From assembly GCA_015066045.1 (NCBI GenBank), contig SVPD01000017.1:1-47137 (forward strand): 47,137 bases of DNA, read 5' to 3'. Of the stretch, positions 1,895-34,764 are shown piece by piece. This DNA is from Oscillospiraceae bacterium. Its GTDB lineage: Bacteria > Bacillota > Clostridia > Oscillospirales > Acutalibacteraceae. Position 1 is the stretch's first letter, and each line of letters starts with the position of its first letter. Position numbers and translations under genes: made by a program. The notes under the pieces were generated by a model, which did not search any database, was not told the DNA's origin, and saw nothing but the letters and a program-made list of their open reading frames with translations.

Positions 1895-4726
1895 TTATTT
1901 AAAATATCTTTTGAGGTATTGACCTGTGTAGGAGCTTTCATTCTCCGCTATTTCCTCGGGAGTACCCGTCGCAACTACCGTTCCTCCCCCGTCTCCGCCC
2001 TCAGGTCCGAGGTCTATTACATAATCGGCAGATTTGATTACATCCAGATTATGCTCGATAACTATAACACTGTTTCCCTTGTCAACCAAGGTCTGCAGCA
2101 CATTTATGAGTCTGTGGACATCGGCAGTGTGAAGACCTGTGGTAGGCTCGTCGAGAATATATACGGTTTTACCCGTAGACGGTCTGGCAAGCTCAGTGGA
2201 AAGCTTTACTCTCTGCGCTTCACCGCCCGAAAGAGTAGTGGCGGGCTGACCGATTTTCACATAGCCTAAGCCTACATCATAAAGCGTTTTAAGCTTTTTA
2301 TGAATTTTGGGTATGTTTTCGAAAAATATCATACCCTCCTCAATGGTCATTTCAAGCACATCATAAATGGTTTTGCCTTTATATCTTACGTTAAGCGTTT
2401 CAGTGTTATATCTTTTACCCTTACACACCTCGCAGGGAACATAAACGTCAGCGAGAAAGTGCATTTCAATTTTGACTATTCCGTCGCCCTCGCAGGCCTC
2501 GCAGCGACCGCCCTTGGTATTGAACGAAAATCTGCCTGCAGTGTATCCCTTTGCTTTCGCATCCGTAGTGGCGGCGAAAAGCTCACGGATATCGGTAAAC
2601 ACGCCCGTATATGTGGCGGGATTTGAGCGGGGCGTTCTGCCTATGGGAGACTGGTCGATATTTATAACCTTGTCTAAATTTTCGATACCCTGCATCTTTC
2701 TGAATTTTCCCGCAATAAGCTTGGCACCGTTCAGCTCGTTTGAAAGATGCTTATTAAGTATTTCATTTATCAGTGAGGATTTACCCGAGCCGGACACACC
2801 CGTCACCGCTACAAGCTCACCGAGAGGAATTTCTACATCGATATTTTTCAGATTATTCTGAGCCGCACCGAAAATTTTAAGGAGCTTTCCGTTTCCCCCT
2901 CTTCTTTCCTGCGGGATAGGAATGAATTTTCTTCCGCTGAGATATTGCCCCGTAACGGACTGCTCGCAGGCAAGAATATCCCCGACCGTGCCTGCCGCTA
3001 CGATGTTTCCGCCGTGAATACCTGCTCCGGGGCCCACATCAACCACATAATCAGCCTCGAGCATAGTGTCCTCGTCGTGCTCAACCACAATCAGAGTATT
3101 TCCGATGTCACGCAGATGCTTAAGTGTGCCGATAAGCTTACCGTTGTCACGCTGATGAAGACCGATGCTCGGTTCGTCGAGAATATAAAGCACTCCCACC
3201 AGAGAAGAGCCTATCTGTGTAGCGAGTCTGATTCTCTGACTTTCACCGCCGGAAAGAGAGCCCGACTGACGTGCCAGAGTGAGATAATTGAGACCTACAC
3301 TGTTCAGAAATGAAAGTCTCTCGGTAATCTCTTTTATAATAAGATTTGCGATAGTCATTTCACGTTCGGTCAGCTTTTCGGGCAGAGTTTTGATAAATCC
3401 GAGAGAATCTGCCACCGACATGGAGCATACCTCGAAAATATTTTTGCCGTCAACGGTAACACTGAGTGCTTCCCTGCTGAGCCTGGCACCGTTACATTCC
3501 TTACATTCGGTCACGGTCATCAGTGCCTCGATTTCTTTTTTGGAGGCCTCTGAGGCAGAGTCAGTATATCTGCGCTGAAGATTATTTAAAACACCCTCAA
3601 ATTCAGCGAGATATGTGCCGCTGCCGTAGCTGGTGGTTCTTTCCATTTTAAGCTTTTCACCCTTAGTACCGTACAGAAGAGCATCGAAAGCCTCGGGAGA
3701 GATATCTTCGATAGGTGTATCAAGGTCAAAGCCGTATCTTTTACCCAGAGCAGTATAATACATACCCGAAATAGAGTTTTCGTCCCTGCACTGCCAGCCT
3801 GCGGCTTTAACGGCACCCTGTCTGATGGAAAGCTTTCTGTCCGGAATAATCATAGAGGGAGAAATCTCCATAAACACTCCGAGTCCCGAGCACTTCTTAC
3901 ACGAGCCGAAGGGACTGTTAAAGGAAAACATACGGGGAGTAATCTCACCGAAGCTTACTCCGTGCTCCGGACAGGCATAATTCAGCGAAAACATAACTTC
4001 CTCGCCGCCGATAACATCCACCAGCAAAAGCCCCTCTGCGAGCTTAGTGGCGGTTTCGATGGAGTCGGCTAATCTCGATTTGATGCTTTCTTTTACTACC
4101 AGACGGTCAACGACCACCTCAATATTATGCTTTTTATTCTTCTCTAATTTTATGCTTTCAGAAAGGTCATAGATAATCGAATCGATTCTTACACGCACGA
4201 AGCCCGATTTCCGCACTGACTCGAGCTCTTTTACATATTCACCCTTTCTGCCTCTGACTATAGGTGCCAAAAGCTGAATTTTAGTGCCCTCGGGGTAGGT
4301 TAAAATTTTATCGACGATCTGATCAACTGTCTGCTGCCTGATTTCCTTGCCGCACACGGTGCAGTGAGGTATACCTATTCTCGCATAAAGCAGACGGAGA
4401 TAATCGTAAATTTCGGTAATGGTGCCCACCGTGGAGCGCGGATTTTTTGATGTGGTTTTCTGGTCGATGGATATGGCGGGAGAAAGCCCCTCGATGTAAT
4501 CCACATCGGGCTTATCCATCTGTCCGAGAAACTGTCTGGCATAGGATGAAAGAGACTCGACATATCTTCTTTGTCCCTCTGCATAAATAGTATCAAAGGC
4601 AAGAGAGGATTTACCCGAGCCGGAAAGCCCCGTAAAAACTATGAACTTATCTCTGGGGAGAGTCAGATCGACGTTTTTAAGATTATGCTCTCTCGCCCCT
4701 TTTATGGTGATGTATTTCTGTGACAT
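1895..4726 (-). CDS. uvrA: Excinuclease ABC subunit A
   Basis: A 943-aa UvrA, the normal full length. It is the damage-sensing ATPase of nucleotide excision repair, which loads UvrB onto lesions. Both ABC modules are complete: Walker [10 protein letters not shown] near residue 35 and GVSGSGKSS near 645, and signature motifs LSGGESQR and LSGGEAQR. Zinc-site cysteine clusters are present (CTVCG, CPEHG followed by CKKC, and CEACEGDG with CEVCKGK in the second module). ATG 4726 is the family start ([18 protein letters not shown]). It lies 9 bp after uvrB and is evidently cotranscribed with it. I saw no LexA-type box in front of the operon. Confidence 0.99.
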
Positions 4727-4735
4727 AATTACCTC

Positions 4736-6700
4736 TTATTTCATCATGCTTTTTAATTTTTCTATCTTGTCACGAAGGAATGCTGCGTGCTCAAATTCGA
4801 GAAGCTTTGCCGCCTCCTTCATCTCAGCGGTAAGCTGTCTGATAACCTTGTCCTTTTCGTTTCTCGGAAGCTTCTTAAAGGTCTTGTCGTTATCGAGCTT
4901 CTTTTCTGAAATTTCGATAATATCACGCACCTGCTTGACGATAGTTCGGGGCACAATGCCGTTATCGATGTTATACTGATTCTGTATTTCACGTCTTCTT
5001 TTGGTTTCATTTATGGCATAGCTCATTGACGGTGTTATCCTGTCGGCATACATAATAACCTCACCGTTTGCGTTACGTGCCGCTCTGCCGATAGTCTGTA
5101 CCAAGGATGTCTCCGAGCGTAAAAAGCCTTCCTTGTCAGCATCGAGAATAACCACCAGAGACACCTCGGGTATGTCAAGACCTTCTCTGAGAAGGTTAAT
5201 GCCTATAAGCACATCAAACTCTCCGAGACGGAGGTCTCTGATAATCTCCATTCTTTCTATGGTGTCCACATCATAGTGCATATATCTGACCTTTATGCCG
5301 AAGTTTTCGAGATAATCAGTAAGAGACTCAGCCATCTTTTTGGTAAGAGTGGTGATCAGAACTCTCTCTTTACGCTGAGTACGGATGTTGATTTCGCTGA
5401 CTATGTCATCTATCTGACCGTCTGTAGGTCTAACACTGATTACGGGGTCCAGAAGTCCCGTGGGACGGATGATTTGCTCTACTATCTGACTGCTCTTTTC
5501 CTTTTCAAAGGCTCCGGGAGTGGCACTTACAAATATTTTCTGCCCGACCATATCATAAAATTCATCGAATTTCAGCGGTCTGTTATCATAGGCAGAGGGC
5601 AGACGGAAGCCGTATTCTATCAGAGATTCCTTACGTGATCTGTCACCGCCGTACATAGCACGCACCTGCGGAAGCATTACGTGTGATTCATCCACGAAAA
5701 GAAGAAAATCATCGGGAAAATAATTAAGCAAGGTAAAGGGTGCCGCTCCGGCAGGTCTGTCAGACATAATTCTGGAATAATTTTCTATTCCCTTACAGAA
5801 GCCCGTTTCCCTGAGCATTTCGAGGTCATACAGTGTTCTTTGCTTTATTCTTTCAGCCTCTAAAAGCTTTCCCGCTTTCGTAAACTCTACCACACGGTCT
5901 TCCATTTCCTGCTTTATATCATCGAGAGCTTTTTCGAGCTTGTCCGGTGCCACCACGTAATGGGAGGCAGGATAAATCGCCACGTGTGAAACATTGTTTT
6001 TAACCTCGCCCGTCAGAGGATTGATTTCAGAAATACGGTCTATTTCGTCACCGAAAAACTCCACTCTGATGGCGGTGTCGGATGTGTATACGGGGTAAAT
6101 TTCTACTACATCTCCGCGCACACGGAATTTGTTTCTGATGAAGTTTACGTCGTTTCTGTCGTACTGTATTTCTACGAGCTTTTCTATTAAATCCTCTCTG
6201 CTTTTTTCCATACCCACACGCAGAGAAATAACCATATTACGGTAATCGATGGGATTACCGAGAGTGTATATGCAGGAAACACTGGCTACTATGATTACGT
6301 CACGTCTTTCGGAAAGAGCAGATGTGGCCGAATGGCGCAGCTTATCTATTTCATCGTTTATGGCGGAGTCCTTTTCGATGTAGGTGTCCGTGGTGGGAAT
6401 GTATGCTTCGGGCTGGTAGTAGTCATAATAGGAAACGAAATATTCTACGGCATTTTCGGGAAAAAACTCTTTGAATTCGCTGCAAAGCTGACCTGCCAAT
6501 GTTTTGTTATGCGCCAGAACAAGAGTGGGCCTGTTCAGCTCAGCGATAATATTCGCCATAGTAAATGTTTTGCCCGAGCCGGTAACACCCATAAGAGTCT
6601 GCTCCTTATAGCCTTTTCTGACACCGTCTGCGAGAGCAGCTATCGCCTGCGGCTGATCGCCCGTAGGCCTGTAATCCGAAACGAGCTTGAAGCGGTCCAT
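4736..6700 (-). CDS. uvrB: Excinuclease ABC subunit B
   Basis: A 654-aa UvrB helicase-like damage-verification subunit of nucleotide excision repair. Visible motifs are Walker A GVTGSGKT near residue 38, the beta-hairpin region [12 protein letters not shown] that clamps damaged DNA, DESH, helicase motif [11 protein letters not shown] and a C-terminal UvrC-binding UVR domain ([18 protein letters not shown]). Two in-frame ATGs occur at 6706 and 6700. AAAGGGG ends right at 6707, so only ATG 6700 has normal spacing (6 nt) and I prefer it. First gene of uvrBA. Confidence 0.98.
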
Positions 6701-6733
6701 ATACATCCCCCTTTCATTGGTTTAATCTATAAT

Positions 6734-6763
6734 ATTATACTACATTCCGCATAAAAAAGTAAA
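6734..6763 (-). promoter_or_regulatory. Promoter of uvrBA
   Basis: -10 TATAAT (6734-6739) and a weak -35 TTTACT (6758-6763), 18 bp apart, on the minus strand about 35 bp before the uvrB start. Confidence 0.5.
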
Positions 6764-6814
6764 GCAATTTATATGAAAACAAAAGGATAAAAAACATTAT
6801 AATTTTTTAAGTTA

Positions 6815-6843
6815 TTGATAAAGTAGAAATAATATGATATAAT
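6815..6843 (+). promoter_or_regulatory. Promoter of pgsA
   Basis: -35 TTGATA (6815-6820), 17-bp spacer, -10 TATAAT (6838-6843), 26 bp before the pgsA start. Divergent from the uvrBA promoter. Confidence 0.75.
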
Positions 6844-6869
6844 AAAAAAAACTTGCATTGAGGTGTAAA

Positions 6870-7406
6870 ATGAATATTGCAAACAAATTAACGGTTTTCA
6901 GAGTGATTCTGGTGCCCTTTTTCGTAATCTTTATGCTTACGGATTTCACCGATTATAACAGATGGATAGCCTTCGCTATTTTCGTCATAGCCACCATTAC
7001 CGACAAATTAGACGGAACTATAGCCCATAAGTATAATATGGTCACAAATTTCGGTAAATTTATGGATCCCATCGCAGATAAGCTTCTGGTATGCTCGGCT
7101 CTCATCTGTCTTACCGCTACAGGTGAGGTTCCCGCCTGGGTAACCATACTCATCATCGGCAGAGAGTTCGCTATAAGCGGAATAAGATTGGTCGCTGCAG
7201 ATAACGACGTAGCCATTGCGGCCACATGGTGGGGTAAAAGCAAAACAATAGCTCAGATGGCAATGATAATTATAATCCTTATGAATGTACCCGCTCTGCA
7301 CATTTTAGGACAGATTGTGATGTATGTTTCCGTCGTACTGACCGTGGTTTCACTGGTGGATTACATAATCAAAAACAAAAATGTTTTAGTTTTTGAGGAT
7401 AAATAA
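6870..7406 (+). CDS. pgsA: CDP-diacylglycerol-glycerol-3-phosphate 3-phosphatidyltransferase
   Basis: A 178-aa integral membrane enzyme that makes phosphatidylglycerophosphate from CDP-diacylglycerol and glycerol-3-phosphate. The CDP-alcohol phosphotransferase motif (residues about 49-73) reads DKLDGTIAHKYN then G-x3-D-x3-D in NFGKFMDPIADK. The aspartates that bind metal are all present, but the family's DG-x2-AR reads AH, an unusual substitution at the conserved arginine. ATG 6870 has GAGG 6 nt upstream. It is followed by its own terminator, so it is probably monocistronic. Confidence 0.93.
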   Translation: MNIANKLTVFRVILVPFFVIFMLTDFTDYNRWIAFAIFVIATITDKLDGTIAHKYNMVTNFGKFMDPIADKLLVCSALICLTATGEVPAWVTILIIGREFAISGIRLVAADNDVAIAATWWGKSKTIAQMAMIIIILMNVPALHILGQIVMYVSVVLTVVSLVDYIIKNKNVLVFEDK

Positions 7407-7407
7407 C

Positions 7408-7440
7408 AAATAAAGGGCCTTCTGAGGCTCTTTATTTATT
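7408..7440 (+). terminator. pgsA terminator
   Basis: 12-bp stem AAATAAAGGGCC/GGCTCTTTATTT with one G-T pair and a TTCTGA loop, directly after the pgsA stop. Confidence 0.75.
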
Positions 7441-7447
7441 TTAAATA

Positions 7448-7477
7448 TTGACAAAAGGCAGATAATATTGTTAAAAT
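7448..7477 (+). promoter_or_regulatory. Promoter of metG-tatD
   Basis: -35 TTGACA (7448-7453) and -10 TTAAAA/TAAAAT (7471-7477) at 17-18 bp spacing, 39 bp before metG. No T-box or S-box is visible in the short leader. Confidence 0.65.
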
Positions 7478-7515
7478 ATATGTTGATACTTTATAATTTG
7501 AAAGGAAGTAATAAT

Positions 7516-9453
7516 ATGAATAAGGGTAAGTTTTATATAACAACCGCTATCGCATATACTTCGAGAAAGCCTCATATAGGCAATAGCTATGAAATCGTTC
7601 TTACCGACGCTATCGCTCGCTATAAGAGACTTCAGGGCTACGACGTGTATTTCCTCACAGGCACCGATGAGCACGGACAGAAAATCGAGGAATATGCAAA
7701 GGCTGCCGGTGTTTCACCGAAGGAATATGTGGACAAGGTAGCAGCAGAAATCAGAGACATCTGCGACACCCTCAATACAACCTACGATAAATTTATCAGA
7801 ACCACTGACGATTATCACGAAAAGGTAGTACAGAAAATCTTTAAAAAGCTTTATGAGCAGGATGATATTTATAAGAGTGAATATGAAGGCCTTTACTGCA
7901 CTCCCTGTGAGTCCTTCTGGACAGAGTCTCAGCTCGTGGACGGCAAATGCCCCGACTGCGGAAGAGAGGTAAAAAAGGCGAAAGAGGAAGCATACTTCCT
8001 GCGTCTTTCCAAATATCAGAAGCAGCTCGAGGATTACATCGAAAGCAACGATAATTTCATCTATCCCGAAAGCCGCAAAAAGGAAATGCTTAACAACTTC
8101 ATCAAGCCCGGACTTCAGGACCTCTGTGTTTCCAGAACCTCCTTCAAATGGGGTATTCCCGTTTCCTTCGATGACAACCACGTAATTTATGTGTGGATTG
8201 ACGCTCTTTCAAACTATATCACCGCATTAGGCTACGATCCCGACGGCTCCGGTGAGCTTTACAAAAAATACTGGCCCGCTGATGTTCACATTATCGGTAA
8301 GGATATCGTGCGCTTCCACACCATCTACTGGCCCATTATGCTTATGGCATTAGGTGAGGAGCTTCCCAAGCAGGTTTACGGCCATCCCTGGCTTCTTTTC
8401 GGAGAGGACAAAATGTCAAAATCAAAGGGTAATGTAATTTATGCTGACGAGCTGGCAAAGCTTATCGGTGTCGATGCCGTAAGATATTATCTTTTATCCG
8501 AAATGCCTCACGCAAATGACGGCTCTATCTCCTATAGCACTATTATCGAGCGCTTCAATTCCGATCTTGCAAACACACTCGGTAATCTCGTAAACAGAAC
8601 CGTCGCTATGACAAACAAATACTTCGCAGGAACAGTTATGGCTCCCGTCTGCGGTGATGCCACAGACGAAGAGCTTAAGACCTTCGCACTCGAAACAGTA
8701 AAAACTGTAGAAGCAAAGATGGAAACCTACCACATCGCCGATGCGGTAGAGGCTATTATGAATCTGGCAAAGCGCTGCAACAAATACATCGACGAGACCG
8801 CTCCCTGGACTCTTGCCAAAGACGAAGCAAACAAGGAAAGACTCGGAACCGTTCTTTATAATCTTCTCGAGGGCATCAGATTTATCTCCGTTCTCCTTTC
8901 ATCCTTTATGCCCGAAACTGCCAAGGCTATCAACGCTCAGATTAACTGCGATATCGACACCTACGACAGTCTTTCAGCCTTCGGTGCTCTTAAATCCGGT
9001 AAAACCGTAGGCACCGCCACTCCCCTCTTTGCACGTATAGATGCAGAAAAGATGATGGAGGAAATCAAGGCTCAGCAGGAGGCTGCACAGGCCTCTGAAA
9101 AGAAATTCAACGAAATCGAAGGTATCGCTCAGATCGGAATCGACGATTTCGCCAAGATTGACCTCAGAGTAGCCAAAATAACCGACTGTGAGCCTGTTAA
9201 AAGAGCGAAGAAGCTGCTTAAGCTCACACTCGATGACGGTACAGGCACTCCCAGAACCGTCGCATCAGGCATCGCAAAATGGTACAAGCCCGAGGACCTT
9301 ATCGGTAAGAGTATCATCGTTGTCTCCAACCTCAAGCCTGCCGTCCTCTGCGGTGTGGAAAGTCAGGGTATGATTTTAGCCGCCGACTGCAGTGAGGACG
9401 ACGTAAAGGTTATCTTCGTAGACGGCATTCCCGAAGGCTCAAAGGTGAGATAA
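7516..9453 (+). CDS. metG: Methionyl-tRNA synthetase with C-terminal tRNA-binding domain
   Basis: A 645-aa class I synthetase that charges tRNA-Met. The HIGH motif appears as KPHIGNSYE (HIGN variant). TGTDEHGQK, the zinc-knuckle cysteines CTPC/CPDC and the KMSKS loop (KMSKSKGNV) follow in order. The last 110 residues form an OB-fold tRNA-binding domain (GIDDFAKIDLRVAKI). ATG 7516 has AAAGGAAG upstream; longer in-frame starts lack a ribosome site. Its stop overlaps the tatD start by 1 nt (TAATG). Confidence 0.97.
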   Translation: MNKGKFYITTAIAYTSRKPHIGNSYEIVLTDAIARYKRLQGYDVYFLTGTDEHGQKIEEYAKAAGVSPKEYVDKVAAEIRDICDTLNTTYDKFIRTTDDYHEKVVQKIFKKLYEQDDIYKSEYEGLYCTPCESFWTESQLVDGKCPDCGREVKKAKEEAYFLRLSKYQKQLEDYIESNDNFIYPESRKKEMLNNFIKPGLQDLCVSRTSFKWGIPVSFDDNHVIYVWIDALSNYITALGYDPDGSGELYKKYWPADVHIIGKDIVRFHTIYWPIMLMALGEELPKQVYGHPWLLFGEDKMSKSKGNVIYADELAKLIGVDAVRYYLLSEMPHANDGSISYSTIIERFNSDLANTLGNLVNRTVAMTNKYFAGTVMAPVCGDATDEELKTFALETVKTVEAKMETYHIADAVEAIMNLAKRCNKYIDETAPWTLAKDEANKERLGTVLYNLLEGIRFISVLLSSFMPETAKAINAQINCDIDTYDSLSAFGALKSGKTVGTATPLFARIDAEKMMEEIKAQQEAAQASEKKFNEIEGIAQIGIDDFAKIDLRVAKITDCEPVKRAKKLLKLTLDDGTGTPRTVASGIAKWYKPEDLIGKSIIVVSNLKPAVLCGVESQGMILAADCSEDDVKVIFVDGIPEGSKVR

Positions 9454-18964: not shown

Positions 18965-20028
18965 TATTTTGTACCTCCTTTACAGTGTGCTTTAATTGAT
19001 TCGAGAACAAGCTCGGGAGACGGAATCATACCGCCGACTCTGTTGCAAAGATAAACAGGCTTTTTGCACTCTGAGGCCAGTCGGATATCCTCGATCATCT
19101 GTCCCATAGAAAGCTCTACGGAAATAAAGCAGTCAACCTTGTCAGCTGCCTTTCTGAAGGCTTCGTTCGGGAAGGGCCAGAGTGTGATAGGTCTTATGAG
19201 ACCTGCCTTTACGCCTTCCTTTCTCGCTGCATTAATAGCATTCTTTGCTACTCTGGCAGCGATACCGAAGGCTGCGATACAGATTTCAGCATCGTCCATC
19301 ATATATTCTTCATACATAACTTCGTTTTCTTCGATAGCCTTGTATCTTTCGAATCTGGCGAAATTAAGCTTTTCGAGCTCCTCGGGAACGAGAGAAAGAG
19401 AATTGATGATATTCTTTTTTCTTTCGCATTTAGTGCCCGTTACAGCCCATGATTTGTCATATTCGTTAACCTTGACCTCTTCGAGAGAAACAGGCTCCAT
19501 CATCTGTCCCATGGTACCGTCGGCTAAAATCATAGAAGTCATTCTGTATTTTTCGGCGAGATCGAAGCCTTTGATGGTAAGGTCAGCCATTTCCTGCACT
19601 GAGGAGGGAGCGAGAACTATCATTTTAAAGTCACCGTGACCGCCACCCTTGGTAGCCTGAAAATAGTCAGACTGAGAGGGCTGGATACCGCCGAGACCGG
19701 GGCCACCGCGCTGAACATTTACGACAAGAGAGGGAAGGTCACTGCCGGCAAGATAAGAAAGACCTTCTGCCTTGAGTGAAATTCCGGGGCTTGAGGATGA
19801 TGTCATAACTCTTTTGCCCGTACCTGCCACACCGTAAACCATATTGATGGCAGCCACTTCGCTTTCAGCCTGAAGGAAGCATCCGCCGATTTTAGGCATC
19901 TTTTTGGCCATATAGGCAGCAATTTCCGTCTGAGGAGTAATGGGATAACCGAAGTAATGGCGGCAGCCTGCGAGAATAGCAGCCTCAGCGATAGCTTCGT
20001 TACCCTTCATAAGTACTTTTTCAGCCAT
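18964..20028 (-). CDS. 2-oxoacid:ferredoxin oxidoreductase, alpha subunit (VorB/KorA-like)
   Basis: A 354-aa alpha subunit with an N-terminal pyrimidine-binding domain (GCRHYFGYPITPQTEIAAY) and a C-terminal transketolase-like domain. Its length matches what I recall of clostridial and archaeal VorB (about 350 aa), not fused pyruvate oxidoreductases. GTGKRVMTSSSSPGISL is the conserved TPP-side loop. ATG 20028 has GAGGTG. The order delta-alpha-beta-gamma is the usual four-subunit layout. Confidence 0.93.
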   Translation of the reverse strand: MAEKVLMKGNEAIAEAAILAGCRHYFGYPITPQTEIAAYMAKKMPKIGGCFLQAESEVAAINMVYGVAGTGKRVMTSSSSPGISLKAEGLSYLAGSDLPSLVVNVQRGGPGLGGIQPSQSDYFQATKGGGHGDFKMIVLAPSSVQEMADLTIKGFDLAEKYRMTSMILADGTMGQMMEPVSLEEVKVNEYDKSWAVTGTKCERKKNIINSLSLVPEELEKLNFARFERYKAIEENEVMYEEYMMDDAEICIAAFGIAARVAKNAINAARKEGVKAGLIRPITLWPFPNEAFRKAADKVDCFISVELSMGQMIEDIRLASECKKPVYLCNRVGGMIPSPELVLESIKAHCKGGTK

Positions 20029-29532: not shown

Positions 29533-29586
29533 AAAAAGCACCCACAGTAAAGTGAGTGCTTTTCTGAAAATGGTCGGAGTGACGGG
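29533..29586 (-). repeat. 54-bp repeat, copy A: tRNA 3' end plus terminator
   Basis: Identical to 29814-29867 except one base, offset 281 bp. It holds a tRNA-Pro 3' end (CACTCCGACCA on the minus strand) and a terminator with a 9-bp stem AGCACTCAC/GTGGGTGCT followed by T6. The pair indicates tandem duplication of a tRNA-Pro unit. Confidence 0.85.
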
Positions 29587-29813: not shown

Positions 29814-29867
29814 AAAAAGCACCCACGGTAAAGTGAGTGCTTTTCTGAAAATGGTCGGAGTGACGGG
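29814..29867 (-). repeat. 54-bp repeat, copy B: tRNA 3' end plus terminator
   Basis: Second copy of the 29533-29586 repeat. It overlaps the left attachment site of the integrative element and carries the terminator that presumably served the original tRNA-Pro gene before integration. Confidence 0.85.
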
Positions 29868-29898
29868 ACTTGAACCCATGGCCTCTTGGTCCCGAACC
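29847..29898. other. Left attachment site (att) of the integrative element
   Basis: 52 bp identical to 34683-34734, i.e. the 3' two-thirds of tRNA-Pro from the anticodon loop to just past CCA. Beyond 29898 the sequence departs from the tRNA, so this copy is the displaced 3' end and gives no complete tRNA. The tract 29899-29980 holds a GTTGC-TGTC-GCAAC hairpin and a few tRNA 5'-like bases (ACCAAACTTCGCCAC) but no gene. Confidence 0.9.
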
Positions 29899-29980
29899 GT
29901 TGCCGCGATGTGTTGCTGTCGCAACACCAAAAAACCAAACTTCGCCACGCTTGAACGCACTTGGTATAAATTAATTAATT

Positions 29981-30475
29981 TTACTTTTCATAATCGATTG
30001 AATTATCAACAGATTTATTGTTTTTATATACTCTAAATTTCTCAAGTTCTTGAAATCTACCAACAGCAATAAAAACAGTACTTAATATCTTTAGTACGGC
30101 TTCGATTATATCTGTAGTTAATAATTGTATTTTAACATAATCGCTTGTGTCCTTATAAAATATATCACCGAATTTGTATGGCTCATCATTTCCATAGGTT
30201 AATATATCTTCCAAAAGATGATATATTGCTTTAAGTTTTTCATTTAAATATACCCAATCATCATTGTAAAAGGTTTCCATATAGATATTTTTTATTATCA
30301 GTTCCCAAACAAGAACGGCAAATAATAATGCATATCCGTATATCTCTATTTTTCTTGCAGTTCTATCCGATAACTTTACAACGCTGTTATAAAAATAAAC
30401 GAATATAAAAACAAATCCTAATACGACTAATAAAATTAACAGAATAGGAAAAATAGGTTTTAAAATATCAAACAT
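29981..30475 (-). CDS. Membrane protein of unknown function (element)
   Basis: A 164-aa protein with two strong transmembrane helices (residues about 7-30 and 47-65) and a mainly helical, charged C-terminal half with a third hydrophobic stretch near 125-140. I recognise no family. ATG 30475 lies 13 bp after the serine recombinase stop; its ribosome site GGGGG overlaps that stop, so the two are probably cotranscribed. Toxin, immunity or phage-exclusion roles are imaginable but not shown. Confidence 0.7.
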   Translation of the reverse strand: MFDILKPIFPILLILLVVLGFVFIFVYFYNSVVKLSDRTARKIEIYGYALLFAVLVWELIIKNIYMETFYNDDWVYLNEKLKAIYHLLEDILTYGNDEPYKFGDIFYKDTSDYVKIQLLTTDIIEAVLKILSTVFIAVGRFQELEKFRVYKNNKSVDNSIDYEK

Positions 30476-30485
30476 AAAAGACCCC

Positions 30486-31088
30486 CTATTCCGTCATACT
30501 AACGAGTTTGTAAAAACTCGTTCTTTTTGTTTCTGTCATTTCCATTGCGGTCTTTGCGGTTATTTCTCCCGCTTTCCAAGAGGCATAAACCTCAGACCAA
30601 TTTTCAGGAAATGTCAATGCGGGTCTGCCTAATTTCTTGCCTTTTTGCTTTGCGGCTTCAATGCCCTCAGCCTGACGCTTTTTAATTGTTTCGCGTTCCT
30701 GCTCGGCTATCGTTCCCAAAACCTCAATAAGAATGTTGTTTACCATTTCAAAGACCCATTCCTGACCCTCAGGTAAGTTCATCATAGTTGTTGGTAAATC
30801 AATAACTTTGAGCCTTATGCCATTATCCTTAAAATATTGAAGTTCGTTTTTTATATCGGCTTTGTTTCGGCTTAGTCTGTCGAGTGATTTAATAACAAGT
30901 GTATCACCGCGACGGAGCATTGCATTTTTTAAAGCCTGATAACCTGAACGGTCTAAGTTCTTGCCGCTTTCTTTATCTGTTATTATATCTCTCTCGGTTG
31001 CTCCAAGAGACTTAAAAGCAGATATTTGGCGGTCAAGGTTTTGGTCTTTGCTTGATACTCGTGCGTAAAAATATGTGCGGCTATCCAT
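30486..31088 (-). CDS. Serine recombinase (resolvase/invertase family)
   Basis: A 200-aa small serine recombinase. Catalytic serine lies in FYARVSSKDQN (residues 7-17), followed by LVIKSLDRLSRN and the arm EQERETIKKRQAEGI. A short DNA-binding region (GRPALTFPENWSEVY, ITAKTAMEMTETKRTSFYKL) ends the protein as in Tn3/Hin-type enzymes. It may resolve element multimers or invert DNA. It ends in TAG; if that TAG were read, TGA would stop translation five codons later. ATG 31088 has AAAGGGG. Confidence 0.92.
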   Translation of the reverse strand: MDSRTYFYARVSSKDQNLDRQISAFKSLGATERDIITDKESGKNLDRSGYQALKNAMLRRGDTLVIKSLDRLSRNKADIKNELQYFKDNGIRLKVIDLPTTMMNLPEGQEWVFEMVNNILIEVLGTIAEQERETIKKRQAEGIEAAKQKGKKLGRPALTFPENWSEVYASWKAGEITAKTAMEMTETKRTSFYKLVSMTE

Positions 31089-31119
31089 GTTCGCGCCCCT
31101 TTCTTTATCTTATGTTTGT

Positions 31120-31197
31120 ATTATATCATAAGTGTTCGTAAATATCAATATATTTGCGAATATATTTGTAAATTATTTTATATATTTAACGAACAAA
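31120..31197 (-). promoter_or_regulatory. Recombinase promoter and inverted repeat, possible res/operator site
   Basis: -10 TATAAT (31120-31125), 17-bp spacer, -35 TTGATA (31143-31148). Overlapping it is a dyad with outer arms TGTTCGTAAATAT and ATATTTAACGAACA (one extra A) near 31134-31197, with CGAATATAT-type repeats between. Such a layout fits a resolvase binding region upstream of its own gene. Confidence 0.5.
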
Positions 31198-31288
31198 GAA
31201 AACACGGTGAATTTGTGTGTTTATAAAGGTGTACCTTTGCGAACACAAAATATAGAGCGAACTATTGTCCGCTCTATAGACTACTTAT

Positions 31289-31684
31289 TTATTTTTTCAT
31301 TAATTCTTTTGGGAATGCATAATTGCTTCCTTGAAGTTTTAATATCTCATCGATGATTTCCCAACTAAGCACCAAATCACCGTTTGTAACATTAAATGTT
31401 GTTACAAGGATATCGTCTTTAATTTCCCATATTCCATCTGTTATCATTTCTGCATCGTTTACTGTATTTTTACGTACTACTTGCAATGTACCACCTTTAT
31501 ATATGTTCATGGTTAATTCAATTTCATCGCCCGAATTGAATTCCTTGTAATTATAAGAGAACTTACTTTGGTTTGTATATTTTCCTATCCATTCTCCAAT
31601 AACTGTTTCTGAACTATCAGCACCACAAGCAGCAAACAACATACACATAACAACTACTAAAAGAAGAGCAACTATTTTTTTCAT
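31289..31684 (-). CDS. Lipoprotein of unknown function (element)
   Basis: A 131-aa protein with a lipoprotein signal: MKKIVALLLVVVMCMLFAAC, lipobox LFAAC with Cys20. The mature part is beta-rich and looks like a lipocalin-type or DUF-style small domain (IGEWIGKY, GIWEIKDDILVTTF). It is anchored outside the membrane. Surface lipoproteins on small mobile elements can act in exclusion, but nothing here proves it. Confidence 0.8.
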   Translation of the reverse strand: MKKIVALLLVVVMCMLFAACGADSSETVIGEWIGKYTNQSKFSYNYKEFNSGDEIELTMNIYKGGTLQVVRKNTVNDAEMITDGIWEIKDDILVTTFNVTNGDLVLSWEIIDEILKLQGSNYAFPKELMKK

Positions 31685-31702
31685 TTTTACACCTCGTTAT
31701 TT

Positions 31703-31888
31703 TTATTTTTGTTGAGATAAATTCTGCACCGCTAATCTGATGCTCTGCGGTACGCCATTCATTTTTACATACTTTGAAACTGTTGAGCCGCTTCTTCCTA
31801 TTTGTCTGCCAACCTCGGCATAATTGCCATATTTAGCATAAAGGCGGTGCATTTCAACAATTTCTTCGGGTGTTACTCGTTTAGCCAT
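31703..31888 (-). CDS. Small helix-turn-helix protein (element)
   Basis: A 61-aa protein with a recombinase-type HTH (residues about 15-45, YGNYAEVGRQIGRSGSTVSKYV). An upstream extension in frame is possible, but ATG 31888 is only 1 bp from the stop of the preceding gene, so translation is coupled. Its HTH resembles the DNA-binding arm of serine recombinases; it may bind element DNA as regulator or directionality factor (inference). Confidence 0.75.
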   Translation of the reverse strand: MAKRVTPEEIVEMHRLYAKYGNYAEVGRQIGRSGSTVSKYVKMNGVPQSIRLAVQNLSQQK

Positions 31889-31889
31889 A

Positions 31890-32111
31890 TTATTCAGCCT
31901 TTTTACGGAAAGGTTTATCACCCTTAACAACGCACTTATCAGAATTAGCGATGCAATCTTTCCAAAGTTCATCAATGTAACCTATAAAGGTTTTTTTCTT
32001 GCTTTCATCATCACTCACTTGCATAATAATTTCATTGATAGCATCGAGCTTCTGCTGATAGTTCCAAGGTACTGTGATTGTTTTCTTGTCTGTGTCGAGA
32101 ATAATTCTCAT
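31890..32111 (-). CDS. Small conserved element protein, function unknown
   Basis: A 73-aa charged protein (MRIILDTDKKTITVPWNYQQ at the start, lysine-rich end). From memory, similar small proteins beginning with a beta-strand and ITVP occur on Firmicute plasmids and islands, but I cannot name the family. ATG 32111 has GGAGG. First gene of the minus-strand operon behind the (TA)n promoter. Confidence 0.75.
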   Translation of the reverse strand: MRIILDTDKKTITVPWNYQQKLDAINEIIMQVSDDESKKKTFIGYIDELWKDCIANSDKCVVKGDKPFRKKAE

Positions 32112-32160
32112 GATTTTCTACCTCCAAAAGTAAAATAAAAATGCACGAATATGCCATTTT

Positions 32161-32215
<55 letters not shown>

Positions 32216-32532
32216 GCATTTACACGAAAATAATTGAAAAACTTTAAAAATACAATCTTTCGCGTAAAAATCAAGAAAATTCAAATAAATTCGGTGAGTT
32301 TTGATGCGTTTTTGGTTGTTTTGCATTGTATTCATGTATATTCAAGTGTATTTAATTATAATGAACGAAAACCAAAAGAAATGCACGAAAACGATAACGG
32401 TCAAATAAAAATAACTCTTGACCGCGGAGCTACCCACATTTATTGACTATGCTCAATGCAATTTTAATTTCTCCCGTATTACCGCCCGCCCTCATATAGG
32501 AGAATTATACACTAACCGTCAGGCGGTCTCCT
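32216..32532. other. Gene-poor AT-rich stretch; possible origin or regulatory region
   Basis: About 320 bp without a convincing gene. It contains an inverted repeat CGGTCAA/TTGACCG (32398-32424), TTCATGTAT/TTCAAGTGTAT-type near-repeats around 32330-32352, and a weak terminator-like stem AGGAGA/TCTCCT (32499-32535) before T-rich sequence. Its position before the putative replication operon would suit an origin, but no clear iterons are visible. Confidence 0.35.
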
Positions 32533-32561
32533 TTGATTTTTTATAAAAATTTTAGTATAAT
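32533..32561 (+). promoter_or_regulatory. Promoter of the TAG-containing operon
   Basis: -35 TTGATT (32533-32538), 17-bp spacer, -10 TATAAT (32556-32561). Transcription would start near 32568, 55 bp before the first gene. Confidence 0.75.
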
Positions 32562-32623
32562 ATATATGTAAGTTAAAGATAAAAACTCACAGAAAAAATA
32601 TTGATGAAAGGAGAGAACGCCCG

Positions 32624-32857
32624 ATGTATAAAAGTTCATTTGAACGCTATCTTGAAGCATTGACTAAGTCTATGGATATTACTTTATAGTATCAATTCCA
32701 AAAGGACATGATAAAACAGAATTTATTAAGCGACCGTGAAATAGATGTTATTGCTGATAAAGTTATTCAGCGTTTAAATATAAGTGTCGATGTTACTGAT
32801 ATTATCAAGGAAATTGACAACCTGAACGATAAAATAAAGAACCTCGGAAACTACTGA
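32624..32857 (+). CDS. Small protein with one in-frame TAG, read as Gln (element)
   Basis: A 77-aa protein if TAG at 32687-32689 is glutamine: ...MDITL-Q22-YQFQKDM..., ending at TGA 32855. ATG 32624 has AAAGGAGAG at 8 nt. After the TAG the frame stays open for 55 codons to the end. It is amphipathic and helical, with heptad-like hydrophobics near the C-terminus (IIKEIDNLNDKIKNL), suggesting a coiled coil. Family unknown. It could instead be a nonsense-mutated gene, or give a 49-aa product from an internal ATG (32708), which has AAAAGG close by. Confidence 0.65.
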
Positions 32858-32886
32858 TAAATTAGAGAAAAAGGAGAAAATGTGAT

Positions 32887-33498
32887 ATGCCAAAAGTAAC
32901 ATATCCCAATCAGAGAAACATTAAAATCAACCGTGAACGCGCGACGGTTGATTTCCTCGGTATCAAAAATGAAAATTGGTAGGCGGCAAGTCGCGACCTC
33001 GGAGCAACTGCTCTGAGGCTGTACCTATATCTTGCCTCTAATGCCAACGGCTATACAATAGCCTTGTCTCCTGCGGCTGTTCGCAGGGATATAGGTATGG
33101 CAAGGTCAACATATCACGATTAGTTTCATATACTTGTTGACAAAGGTTATTTAGTTCCTGCGGCGGGCAGTACCTTTGAATTCTTCGAAAAGCCTCAACC
33201 GCGTACCGTGAACAACCCCAAAAATGAAGTGTTGACAGACGGATTGAATTTTGAAACAAGCACGGCTGCCGATGAGGGCATACCGCAAAACGGTCAAGGT
33301 GTAATGAGAGAGAATATAGAAATAAATAATACAACTGATATAACAGATAATAGTATAAATACAAGTCAGGTTGAAACCGAAGAAAAGAAACCACCCTTTG
33401 TGCCAAAAGTGACGGAAATAAAAATACCCTCGCCCTCAGCATAGGGTAATAAAAGACCAACATACATACCACCTAAAAAGGGTGAATTTGTATTTTAA
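32887..33498 (+). CDS. HTH replication-initiator-like protein with three in-frame TAG codons read as Gln
   Basis: A 203-aa protein if three TAGs (32980, 33121, 33442) are glutamine: NENW-Q32-AASRDLG, STYHD-Q79-FHILVDKG and PSPSA-Q186-GNKRP. The true stop is then TAA 33496, 9 bp before a strong terminator. A winged-helix-like region (residues 33-92, ALRLYLYLASNANGYTIALS ... IGMARSTYHD) resembles the helix-turn-helix/replication proteins of small Firmicute elements, where, from memory, WQAA and YHDQF occur. Ordinary Gln codons CAA and CAG are used five times too. No frameshift, TAA or TGA occurs. AAAGGAG lies upstream. Confidence 0.75.
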
Positions 33499-33506
33499 AT
33501 AGATTA

Positions 33507-33539
33507 AGCGGGAGATGTTCGTCTCCCGCTGATTTTTTT
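33507..33539 (+). terminator. Terminator of the TAG-containing operon
   Basis: Perfect 9-bp stem AGCGGGAGA/TCTCCCGCT, 6-nt loop, then GA and T7. A 14-bp perfect palindrome GCCCTCATGAGGGC (33540-33553) follows directly and with the T-rich tract after it may be a second terminator. Confidence 0.9.
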
Positions 33540-33631
33540 GCCCTCATGAGGGCATTTATTTTTTATAGACAACTTTCACAACTTAATAAACAAAACGCCT
33601 CTGCCGCCGTTATACGGAGCGTGGCACATCG

Positions 33632-34579
33632 TCAAGACCGTTTCGGCATTTTTATTCTCTCACTATTGGTACTTAATTTGGCAAGAGGTGAAAAACTGTC
33701 AAAGTCTTTTGTTATCTCTGTATCGAATATAGCACAATAATGTTTTGTCATATCAAGTGTCAAGTGTCCCAATAACTTTTGAAGCATGAGGGCATTGCCG
33801 CCACAATCAACTAAATATTTCTTTGCAAATGTGTGACGGAATAAATGTGTGCTTGTTTTTGTCACGCCGCGGCTACGATTATAATTTACAATACTGCAAC
33901 GAAAACCGCTTTCCGTCATTTGCTCACCGCTTTCACTCGGAAACAAATAATCATCTTGTTTACCGCCTCGGATTTTCATGTATTCCATAAGAACGGCTGA
34001 CATCTGAGAGCATAAAGGAATAACAAGTGCTTTTCTGTTTTTCGTGTGCCGTGCATAGATAACATTGTTTTCCATATCCACATCACGGTTTTGTATATTT
34101 CGGATTGTCGCGGCTCGGCTACCGCTGTTTATGAGGAAATTTACAACTACCCAAGTTCGGTATTCGGCAAAGGTACATTTCTTCATGTTTGGCTTTTGGA
34201 GCAATATTTTCAGTTCTTCATCGGTATAGGTTTCTTTTATCGTTTCTTCACCTTTGTACTTTTTCATATTCAGGCTTGTTATGCCCTCAGCATTACACCA
34301 AGATAAAAAGGCTTTCAGGGTGATTGTATAACTCTTTATTGAGTTCGGTGCAAGTCCTTTGTCCTGCATTGATACTATCATCTTTTTTAAGTCCGTGGCG
34401 GTCATTTCTGCTATCTCTTGGTTAATGTCAAGATGTTTTGAAATAGCATGAAAATGTTGCTTGTATGTTTCGATCGTTCTTGGTTTTACGCCGTCAGCGC
34501 GCTTGGTTAGTAAAAACAGTTCAAACACCTCGGCGGCTGTTTCCTTAGATTTCATGCGGATTGTAGGCTTTTTTCTCAT
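33632..34579 (-). CDS. int: Tyrosine recombinase integrase
   Basis: A 315-aa phage-type integrase. N-terminal SAM-like core-binding domain (residues about 10-95). Catalytic domain with Arg155 (NSGSRAATI), Lys180 (HTKNRK), H245-x2-R248 (THLFRHTF), His272 (LLGHL) and nucleophile Tyr281 (TKHYCAIF). ATG 34579 has GAGGGAAAG; in-frame starts further up lack a ribosome site. Its C-terminus faces the TAG operon, and its start lies about 110 bp from tRNA-Pro, the usual place beside an attachment site. It contains no in-frame TAG. Confidence 0.96.
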   Translation of the reverse strand: MRKKPTIRMKSKETAAEVFELFLLTKRADGVKPRTIETYKQHFHAISKHLDINQEIAEMTATDLKKMIVSMQDKGLAPNSIKSYTITLKAFLSWCNAEGITSLNMKKYKGEETIKETYTDEELKILLQKPNMKKCTFAEYRTWVVVNFLINSGSRAATIRNIQNRDVDMENNVIYARHTKNRKALVIPLCSQMSAVLMEYMKIRGGKQDDYLFPSESGEQMTESGFRCSIVNYNRSRGVTKTSTHLFRHTFAKKYLVDCGGNALMLQKLLGHLTLDMTKHYCAIFDTEITKDFDSFSPLAKLSTNSERIKMPKRS

Positions 34580-34642
34580 AGTTTTCTTTCCCTCTTGGTT
34601 CATTAGATTTTTATTAAAAAACCAAGCGCGAACAAGACATAT

Positions 34643-34678
34643 AAAAAAATGCCTGAAACCTTGTAGTTTCAAGCATTT
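34643..34678 (-). terminator. Terminator of tRNA-Pro supplied by the element
   Basis: Stem TGCTTGAAAC/GTTTCAGGCA, then T7 on the minus strand, directly after the tRNA 3' end. It differs from the terminator at the left att, so the element brought its own. Confidence 0.8.
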
Positions 34679-34682
34679 TAGG

Positions 34683-34734
34683 GAAAATGGTCGGAGTGAC
34701 GGGACTTGAACCCATGGCCTCTTGGTCCCGAACC
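34683..34734. other. Right attachment site (att) inside tRNA-Pro
   Basis: 52-bp copy identical to 29847-29898. Integration here restores a complete tRNA. Confidence 0.9.
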
Positions 34735-34764
34735 AAGCGCGATACCAAACTTCGCCACACCCCG
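34688..34764 (-). tRNA. tRNA-Pro (CGG anticodon)
   Basis: A complete 77-nt cloverleaf with encoded CCA. Acceptor CGGGGTG/CACTCCG (one G-T pair), D-arm GCGA...TCGC, anticodon arm CTTGG-TTCGGGA-CCAAG (anticodon CGG, reads CCG) and T-arm ATGGG-TTCAAGT-CCCGT. It is the integration target of the element to its left. Confidence 0.96.

Follow-up and report, generated by a model that had tools for sequence, protein, structure and literature searches.

Stop-codon recoding in systems linked to bacteria is known from phages, which are assumed to bring the decoder with them. The gut phages described by Borges and colleagues in 2022 reportedly use code 15, in which TAG is read as glutamine. In the passages concerned, recoding is given as prevalent in phages of Firmicutes and Bacteroidetes, with the recoded proteins thought to be made late (PMC9523058), and infection of Bacteroidota or Bacillota is depicted with phage-borne suppressor tRNAs (PMC10879173). 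Satellites with very few genes also exist, PICMI of the Vibrionaceae being the example set out in parts of PMC10803314. Among the literature matches listed, no title or abstract described a satellite or mobile element with a suppressor tRNA or an alternative code; the sole joint match for 'phage satellite' and 'suppressor tRNA' was PMC10879173, where, within the text matched, the word occurs only in a reference title.

The locus examined here lies in a 47,137-nucleotide stretch of contig SVPD01000017.1 (the window) from an Oscillospiraceae bacterium, in which a first-pass annotation had noted two genes of a mobile element interrupted only by in-frame TAG codons. Like the code-15 gut phages, as far as the excerpts portray them, the elements described below combine one gene set in which TAG appears to mean glutamine with a TAG-free integration gene (seen in the phage contig G1285) and standard-code hosts. 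Unlike those phages, they are integrative elements of 4.8–10.9 kb (four measured), in which structural genes and a suppressor tRNA of their own were not found. The likeness to PICMI, as drawn in the parts of PMC10803314 concerned, lies in the very small size, an integrase, a regulator and a replication gene, and no capsid genes. The differences are that the elements occupy tRNA sites (tRNA-Pro in the window) and not a site next to fis, have Clostridia relatives, carry different genes and include a recoded operon. The AlpA regulator and the DUF3987/DUF5906 primase of PICMI had no Pfam match among the window element proteins and gene 2.

Layout of the element and make-up of its family

The integrated element is 4,836 bp long (29847..34682, no strand assigned) and has 52-bp exact direct repeats at both ends. 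The left repeat (29847..29898, + strand) is identical to the right repeat (34683..34734, +), which extends into the 3′ part of a tRNA-Pro(CGG) gene (34688..34764, −; ARAGORN and Rfam), the site of integration. A third copy of the att core, 21 bp at 29566-29586, lies 281 bp to the left of the left repeat and is likely the remnant of a different insertion at this tRNA-Pro. When the host genome was searched with a 1,001-base query from the element region, one copy was found. The satellite traits present are an integrase, a site-specific att, a replication gene (by weak profiles only) and no structural genes; no structural phage families were seen among the proteins scanned from this 4.8-kb att-bounded element and from the elements of relatives.

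Gene 1 (32624..32857, +) encodes a small protein of 77 codons and runs from ATG at 32624 to TGA at 32855–32857, with one in-frame TAG at 32687 (codon 22); its relatives make up alignment A3. Gene 2 (32887..33498, +), with 203 codons, encodes a winged-helix, replication-initiator-like protein according to profile matches, and runs from ATG at 32887 to TAA at 33496–33498 with TAGs at 32980, 33121 and 33442 (codons 32, 79 and 186). These frames are as first annotated: neither contains an internal TAA, TGA or frameshift, and both also use CAA and CAG for glutamine (two and two in gene 1, three and two in gene 2). The C-terminal F-x-F of gene 2 is retained downstream of its three TAGs. The strong terminator reported after gene 2 was likewise recovered, as an intrinsic hairpin followed by a T-run (33507..33530, +), in a scan that returned 5 terminator-like sites against 1.2 expected. 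The promoter described as intact fared less well. A promoter-like site lies 5′ of gene 1 (32533..32561, +), but it was not above chance in the consensus scan; since 5 such sites were found and 5.9 were expected, the scan provides no evidence for it.

The remaining genes of the element are on the minus strand. A tyrosine integrase (33632..34579, −; Pfam Phage_integrase, 2.7e-24) has no in-frame TAG and ends in TGA, its ATG being chosen to match the start of the integrase in the sibling element L171. A serine resolvase (30486..31088, −; Pfam Resolvase, 1.6e-30) has no TAG before its end and terminates in TAG, at a position that coincides in the alignment with the end of two relatives. An HTH_38-like small DNA-binding protein (31703..31888, −) scored below the curated cut-off and has siblings in L155 and L160. 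The cargo consists of a small lipoprotein-like gene (31289..31684, −) and a low-GC gene that is membrane-protein-like by eye (29981..30475, −), both with no family above cut-off.

The profile matches of gene 2 are weak and point to a replication initiator-like protein. Among the PHROG profiles, phrog_270 (replication initiation) was matched weakly by 14 of 15 members (best E 3.5e-8), a DnaD-like profile by six and an O-like profile by five; HTH_36 was matched weakly by seven of 15. Gene 2 differs from these families in its short variable C-terminus ending in F-x-F and in its in-frame TAGs. For gene 1 there was no useful family match, with Pfam and PHROG among the profiles tried. In some relatives the operon has a third gene, encoding a GIY-YIG nuclease, which was not seen in the window's element. 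The two nucleases tested matched the phrog_1111 endonucleases (E 1.6e-10 and 1.8e-8), and the Pfam GIY-YIG match fell just under cut-off; the nucleases are unlike phrog_1111 in that six of the seven copies counted contain TAG.

Relatives of gene 2 were sought in genome samples that overlap, and several of the matches were weak. A piece of the window gene 2 gave a match with E <= 0.001 in 2 of 147 genomes, the protein of an intact relative gave matches in 7 of 300 and 10 of 394 genomes, and alignment A1 in 12 of 246, 3 of 63 and 7 of 391 genomes. One scan of genome contigs returned the locus on the query's own contig (roe deer) and four others, in two Clostridia MAGs (water buffalo and rabbit), an Oscillospiraceae MAG (goat) and a contig of an Alphaproteobacteria bin (roe deer). 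The named relatives are mostly Clostridia MAGs. A TAG-rich copy, L051, is on a 3.6-kb contig (JAFUQI010000074.1) of an Alphaproteobacteria MAG, a placement that is probably a binning error. Neither the phage nor the plasmid collection contained a match to gene 2; of the searches of viral contigs, one was empty and another gave a single distant relative, on a contig that looks standard-code by eye. The GIY-YIG protein had no match in the phage collection. A single match to solved structures was obtained, at E 0.3.

The family of small mobile elements, carried by gut bacteria, comprises 22 counted elements with 42 usable gene copies (gene 1, n = 14; gene 2, n = 21; nuclease, n = 7). Weak or short gene-2 matches were dropped before counting (L007, L008, L009, L081/L170, L082, L083, L084-L088 and L092-L095); L083, a poor gene-2 match, has three TAGs. 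From L163 (G349), only the nuclease was used, its distant gene-2 relative holding one TAG. Other TAG carriers outside the counts are gene 1 of L158 (one TAG), the nuclease of L171 (three) and minus-strand genes of L157 and L054. The last two (L157 6739-7475 and L054 3322-3459, both minus) are small element genes with in-frame TAG outside the three counted families, and the larger of them had no Pfam or PHROG match at 0.001.

Exact att repeats surround four elements: that of the window, L156 (4,993 bp, tRNA-Ala), L157 (9,618 bp, tRNA-Leu) and L052 (10,878 bp, tRNA-Lys). At nine other loci tested, several of them truncated by contig ends, none were found. An integrase is present at 15 loci, and cargo varies between elements. 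In L052, the 10.9-kb relative, the cargo (4491-9339) includes one TIR-TPR and one SPFH protein with a possible anti-phage role, and L157 carries a ParA-like ATPase and a WYL regulator; with this ParA-like gene, a plasmid-like life would fit L157 as well. Of nine cargo proteins given to PADLOC, the ParA-like ATPase alone had a match, to a candidate system (3.4e-9); the L052 TIR-TPR and SPFH proteins had none.

Use of TAG across the family

The internal stops in the 42 operon genes were 43 TAG, no TAA and no TGA. If nonsense codons arose by C-to-T change at glutamine codons, the chance of TAG alone 43 times would be about 7e-15. For 39 of the 43, the gene continues for over 20 more codons. TAG is found in nine of 14 rows of gene 1, 10 of 21 of gene 2 and six of seven of the nuclease, and 15 of the 22 elements have at least one. 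Siblings with other stops or frameshifts, a pattern that the first-pass annotation had associated with decay, were not seen among the 42 genes counted. In three relatives codon 9 of gene 2 is TAG, in place of the window's CAG.

Each operon frame was extended past TAG as far as the following TAA or TGA, so the absence of genes ending in TAG follows in part from the procedure; for this reason a Fisher test of the stop codons (p 0.026) was set aside. However, 18 of 21 gene-2 rows reach the C-terminal F-x-F directly before TAA or TGA, so an early TAA or TGA is not hidden there by the way frames were cut, and 14 of 14 gene-1 rows end in TAA or TGA at a common place. The terminators of these rows are therefore truly TAA or TGA. 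The nuclease and two short gene-2 rows, also read through TAG by construction, are no test of TAG as terminator, and in L158 gene 2 and the L171 nuclease, a TAG lies at most four codons from the end and could be a stop. In L158 and L159, which belong to a single genus, gene 2 is short (113 and 107 codons) and has no F-x-F, and both have TAG at the codon-79 glutamine site.

Substitution rates beyond the TAGs show purifying selection in close pairs, as judged by dN and dS: for L154 and L155, gene 2 after codon 9 gave dN 0.167 and dS 0.665, and gene 1 after codon 22 gave dN 0.078 and dS 0.337; for L158 and L159, gene 2 after codon 76 gave dN 0.181 and dS 0.344 over just 31 codons. Several more distant pairs were near saturation. 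The pair formed by the window and L051 showed little constraint past codon 79 (dN 0.652, dS 0.808), which counts against selection. Taken together, the counts and the comparisons make a very strong case for TAG as a sense codon, and its being kept by selection is well supported.

The other genes of the same loci treat TAG differently. The 15 integrases, 23 genes of an upstream gene family and six resolvases have 346 CAA or CAG codons and no TAG inside the gene; their frames were read as in the operon, and the 14 TAGs that these contain are either before the first Met (eight) or at or beyond the ends of aligned relatives (six). Compared with the 43 TAG to 260 CAA or CAG of the operon, this gives a Fisher p of 1e-15; restricting the operon to the 39 TAGs distant from gene ends gives 2e-14. 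Six of these 44 genes end in TAG: the integrases of L051, L052 and L164, the upstream-family genes of L158 and L159, and the window resolvase. In L051, L052 and L164 the integrase thus terminates in TAG and the operon of the same element has TAG as sense. At the sequence level, these elements are shown to retain TAG as a sense codon in one operon and as a stop in their other genes. As a stop in the host TAG is rare, ending one of the 35 chromosomal genes listed in the window.

The residue at TAG, the decoder and recoded phages

That TAG encodes glutamine, the central claim of the first-pass annotation, is supported by the homologue columns. The clearest sites are gene 2 codon 9 (Gln in 18 of 18 other rows), codon 79 (Gln in 15 of 17 non-TAG rows and Tyr in the remainder, TAG being common to four elements) and the LNTQIP site of the nuclease (Gln in five of five other rows). 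At codon 32, Met and Gln are tied at seven each among 19 rows. Codon 186 is mainly Glu (seven), with Gln outside the six commonest residues, and codon 22 of gene 1 has no Gln in non-TAG rows, with TAG there in four elements (the window and three relatives). Of the four sites proposed for such an alignment, gene 2 codons 32 and 79 thus favour glutamine, whereas codon 186 and gene 1 codon 22 are silent.

Profile inference used 37 of the 43 TAGs, six being dropped because fewer than three other residues stood in the column. Glutamine scored +22.9 nats and the next residue, Glu, −13.3; 14 of 14 control sense codons were recovered correctly. When each TAG column was counted once (25 columns), the lead of glutamine was modest (+4.8 against −3.4 for Glu), and it was the best residue in only 1,290 of 2,000 bootstraps. 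Any Gln at all was present in 11 of the 25 TAG columns (14 had none), compared with 93 of 407 other columns. Glutamine is the best-supported residue for TAG; this reading is based on a small number of conserved columns together with the code-15 precedent. The early account of the locus therefore stands as to glutamine; it had overlooked the use of TAG as stop in the element's other genes and that a decoder was not found.

In the host, no CUA tRNA was present among the 42 of 42 tRNA matches typed, nor among those typed in two other TAG-bearing genomes (G234, 35 of 35; G739, 33 of 34). The 34th tRNA-like match of G739 (L153 119-183) is weak, was not called by ARAGORN and has no CUA anticodon by eye. 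ARAGORN found no CUA tRNA in the window and the element loci, some of which are cut by contig ends, and in Rfam the tRNA-Pro alone was above cut-off in the window element. The assemblies are split into many contigs, and since tRNA-Cys and tRNA-Ile(GAU) are missing from the 42 of the host, this tRNA set is incomplete. A pattern scan of 11 genomes produced suppressor candidates at 10 places in nine genomes, of which nine were tRNA-Arg(TCT) and one was uncalled by ARAGORN; all were rejected. When 394 genomes from the order were scanned in turn, 33 matched, and the 30 loci that were typed were tRNA-Leu, other ordinary tRNAs or no tRNA, with no CUA. These searches, in which both scans relied on patterns uncalibrated on a known suppressor tRNA, are suggestive of a decoder absent from host and element.

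Viral contigs scanned with the nuclease alignment gave 24 loci. In L172, L175, L176, L177 and L178, reading TAG as sense gave a higher coding density than giving that role to TGA or TAA, and a gain of at least 0.16 over the standard code; L175 and L176 look alike, and, L171 (described below) aside, the other 18 loci did not show both density features. L172 (record G1285) is the clearest case: its mean ORF lengthens from 158 aa in the standard code to 284 aa when TAG is sense. Its terminase large subunit (Terminase_3, 1.8e-61) has ten TAGs, and ten chosen ORFs together have 120 CAA, 40 CAG and 49 TAG. The G1285 integrase (Phage_integrase, 8.6e-30) has no TAG, and in its nuclease relative TAG occupies the LN-x-IP site, as in the element nucleases. 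No CUA or suppressor tRNA was found in this code-15 contig, which is a fragment.

Another viral record, G1284, contains the end of a sibling element (L171), with three TAGs in the nuclease and an integrase region 90.6% identical to that of the window. The element adjoins an att-like core (L198, near record position 19296-19347), followed by ORFs in the standard code, among them a GH25 lysin (7.6e-33) and one of 2,911 aa without Pfam match. The sibling element sits beside a phage-like region, as if both shared the tRNA-Pro att site.

Explanations for two codes in one element

From these sequences we infer, with moderate confidence, that the element is a dual-code hitchhiker, whose replication operon would be translated when a code-15 phage supplies a suppressor tRNA-Gln; dependence on such a helper is part of this proposal. 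The integrase and resolvase would follow the host code, with TAG as stop, and the operon of genes 1 and 2 (plus the GIY-YIG nuclease in some relatives) would read TAG as glutamine, as code-15 phages do. In an ordinary cell, translation of the operon would halt early in the first gene, as is to be expected given that neither host nor element yielded a CUA suppressor tRNA. Low-level readthrough would presumably be useless to L051, whose gene 1 has three TAGs and whose gene 2 has four. Infection by a TAG-recoded phage, or induction of a recoded prophage, would bring the suppressor tRNA-Gln and allow the operon to be translated. The gene-2 replication initiator would then drive replication of the element, which would spread in the particles of that phage, the genetic code itself serving as helper sensor. 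More tentatively, the code may have become an induction switch: the operon would be unreadable in the normal cell, and a class of phage would be detected by its code and not by a specific protein. Counting against such gating, the sole phage-like region seen beside an element, in G1284, uses the standard code, and seven of the 22 elements are without TAG in the counted genes, so recoding is not required for the life style.

It is unlikely, in our judgement, that the operon is truly in code 15 and decoded by the host with no phage needed, through a CUA tRNA that is missing from the assembly or highly divergent, or through a near-cognate tRNA-Gln. The host genomes are indeed incomplete (97.9%, about 97% and about 88%), the typed host tRNAs are without Cys and Ile(GAU), and the rarity of TAG as host stop means that suppression would be cheap; but there was no CUA among the typed tRNAs of all three TAG-bearing genomes or the 30 loci typed from the 394-genome scan, and the TAGs of L051 would hardly be passable by percent-level readthrough. 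Less probable again is that the operon came from code-15 phages, or that the element is a dependent part of a phage, with the TAGs inherited and decoded with the phage and not selected for gating. This would accommodate the nuclease relatives in recoded phage contigs, the elements without TAG and the share of TAG among glutamine codons, which at 43/303 is of similar order to the 49/209 of the ten ORFs chosen from G1285. It sits poorly with the four sets of exact att repeats, the integrases at 15 loci, the differing cargo and the absence of structural phage families among the element proteins scanned. Its difference from the hitchhiker explanation is more one of purpose than of mechanism.

Decay, in the form of four C-to-T changes in a dying operon, was rejected and is very improbable. 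One change from CAG yields each of the four window sites, but the internal stops are TAG in 43 of 43 cases, TAG sites are common to elements of different genera and occur where other copies keep Gln, dN/dS is low downstream in close pairs, and F-x-F persists past three TAGs in the window.

If the dual-code hitchhiker explanation is true, an element operon in a foreign code, without its own decoder, would represent genes reliant on the genetic code of another replicon. This would give a reason for the persistence of recoded genes in standard-code hosts, and the idea of recoding as a regulatory switch would become directly testable. TAG-recoded operons of this kind can be misannotated as pseudogenes.
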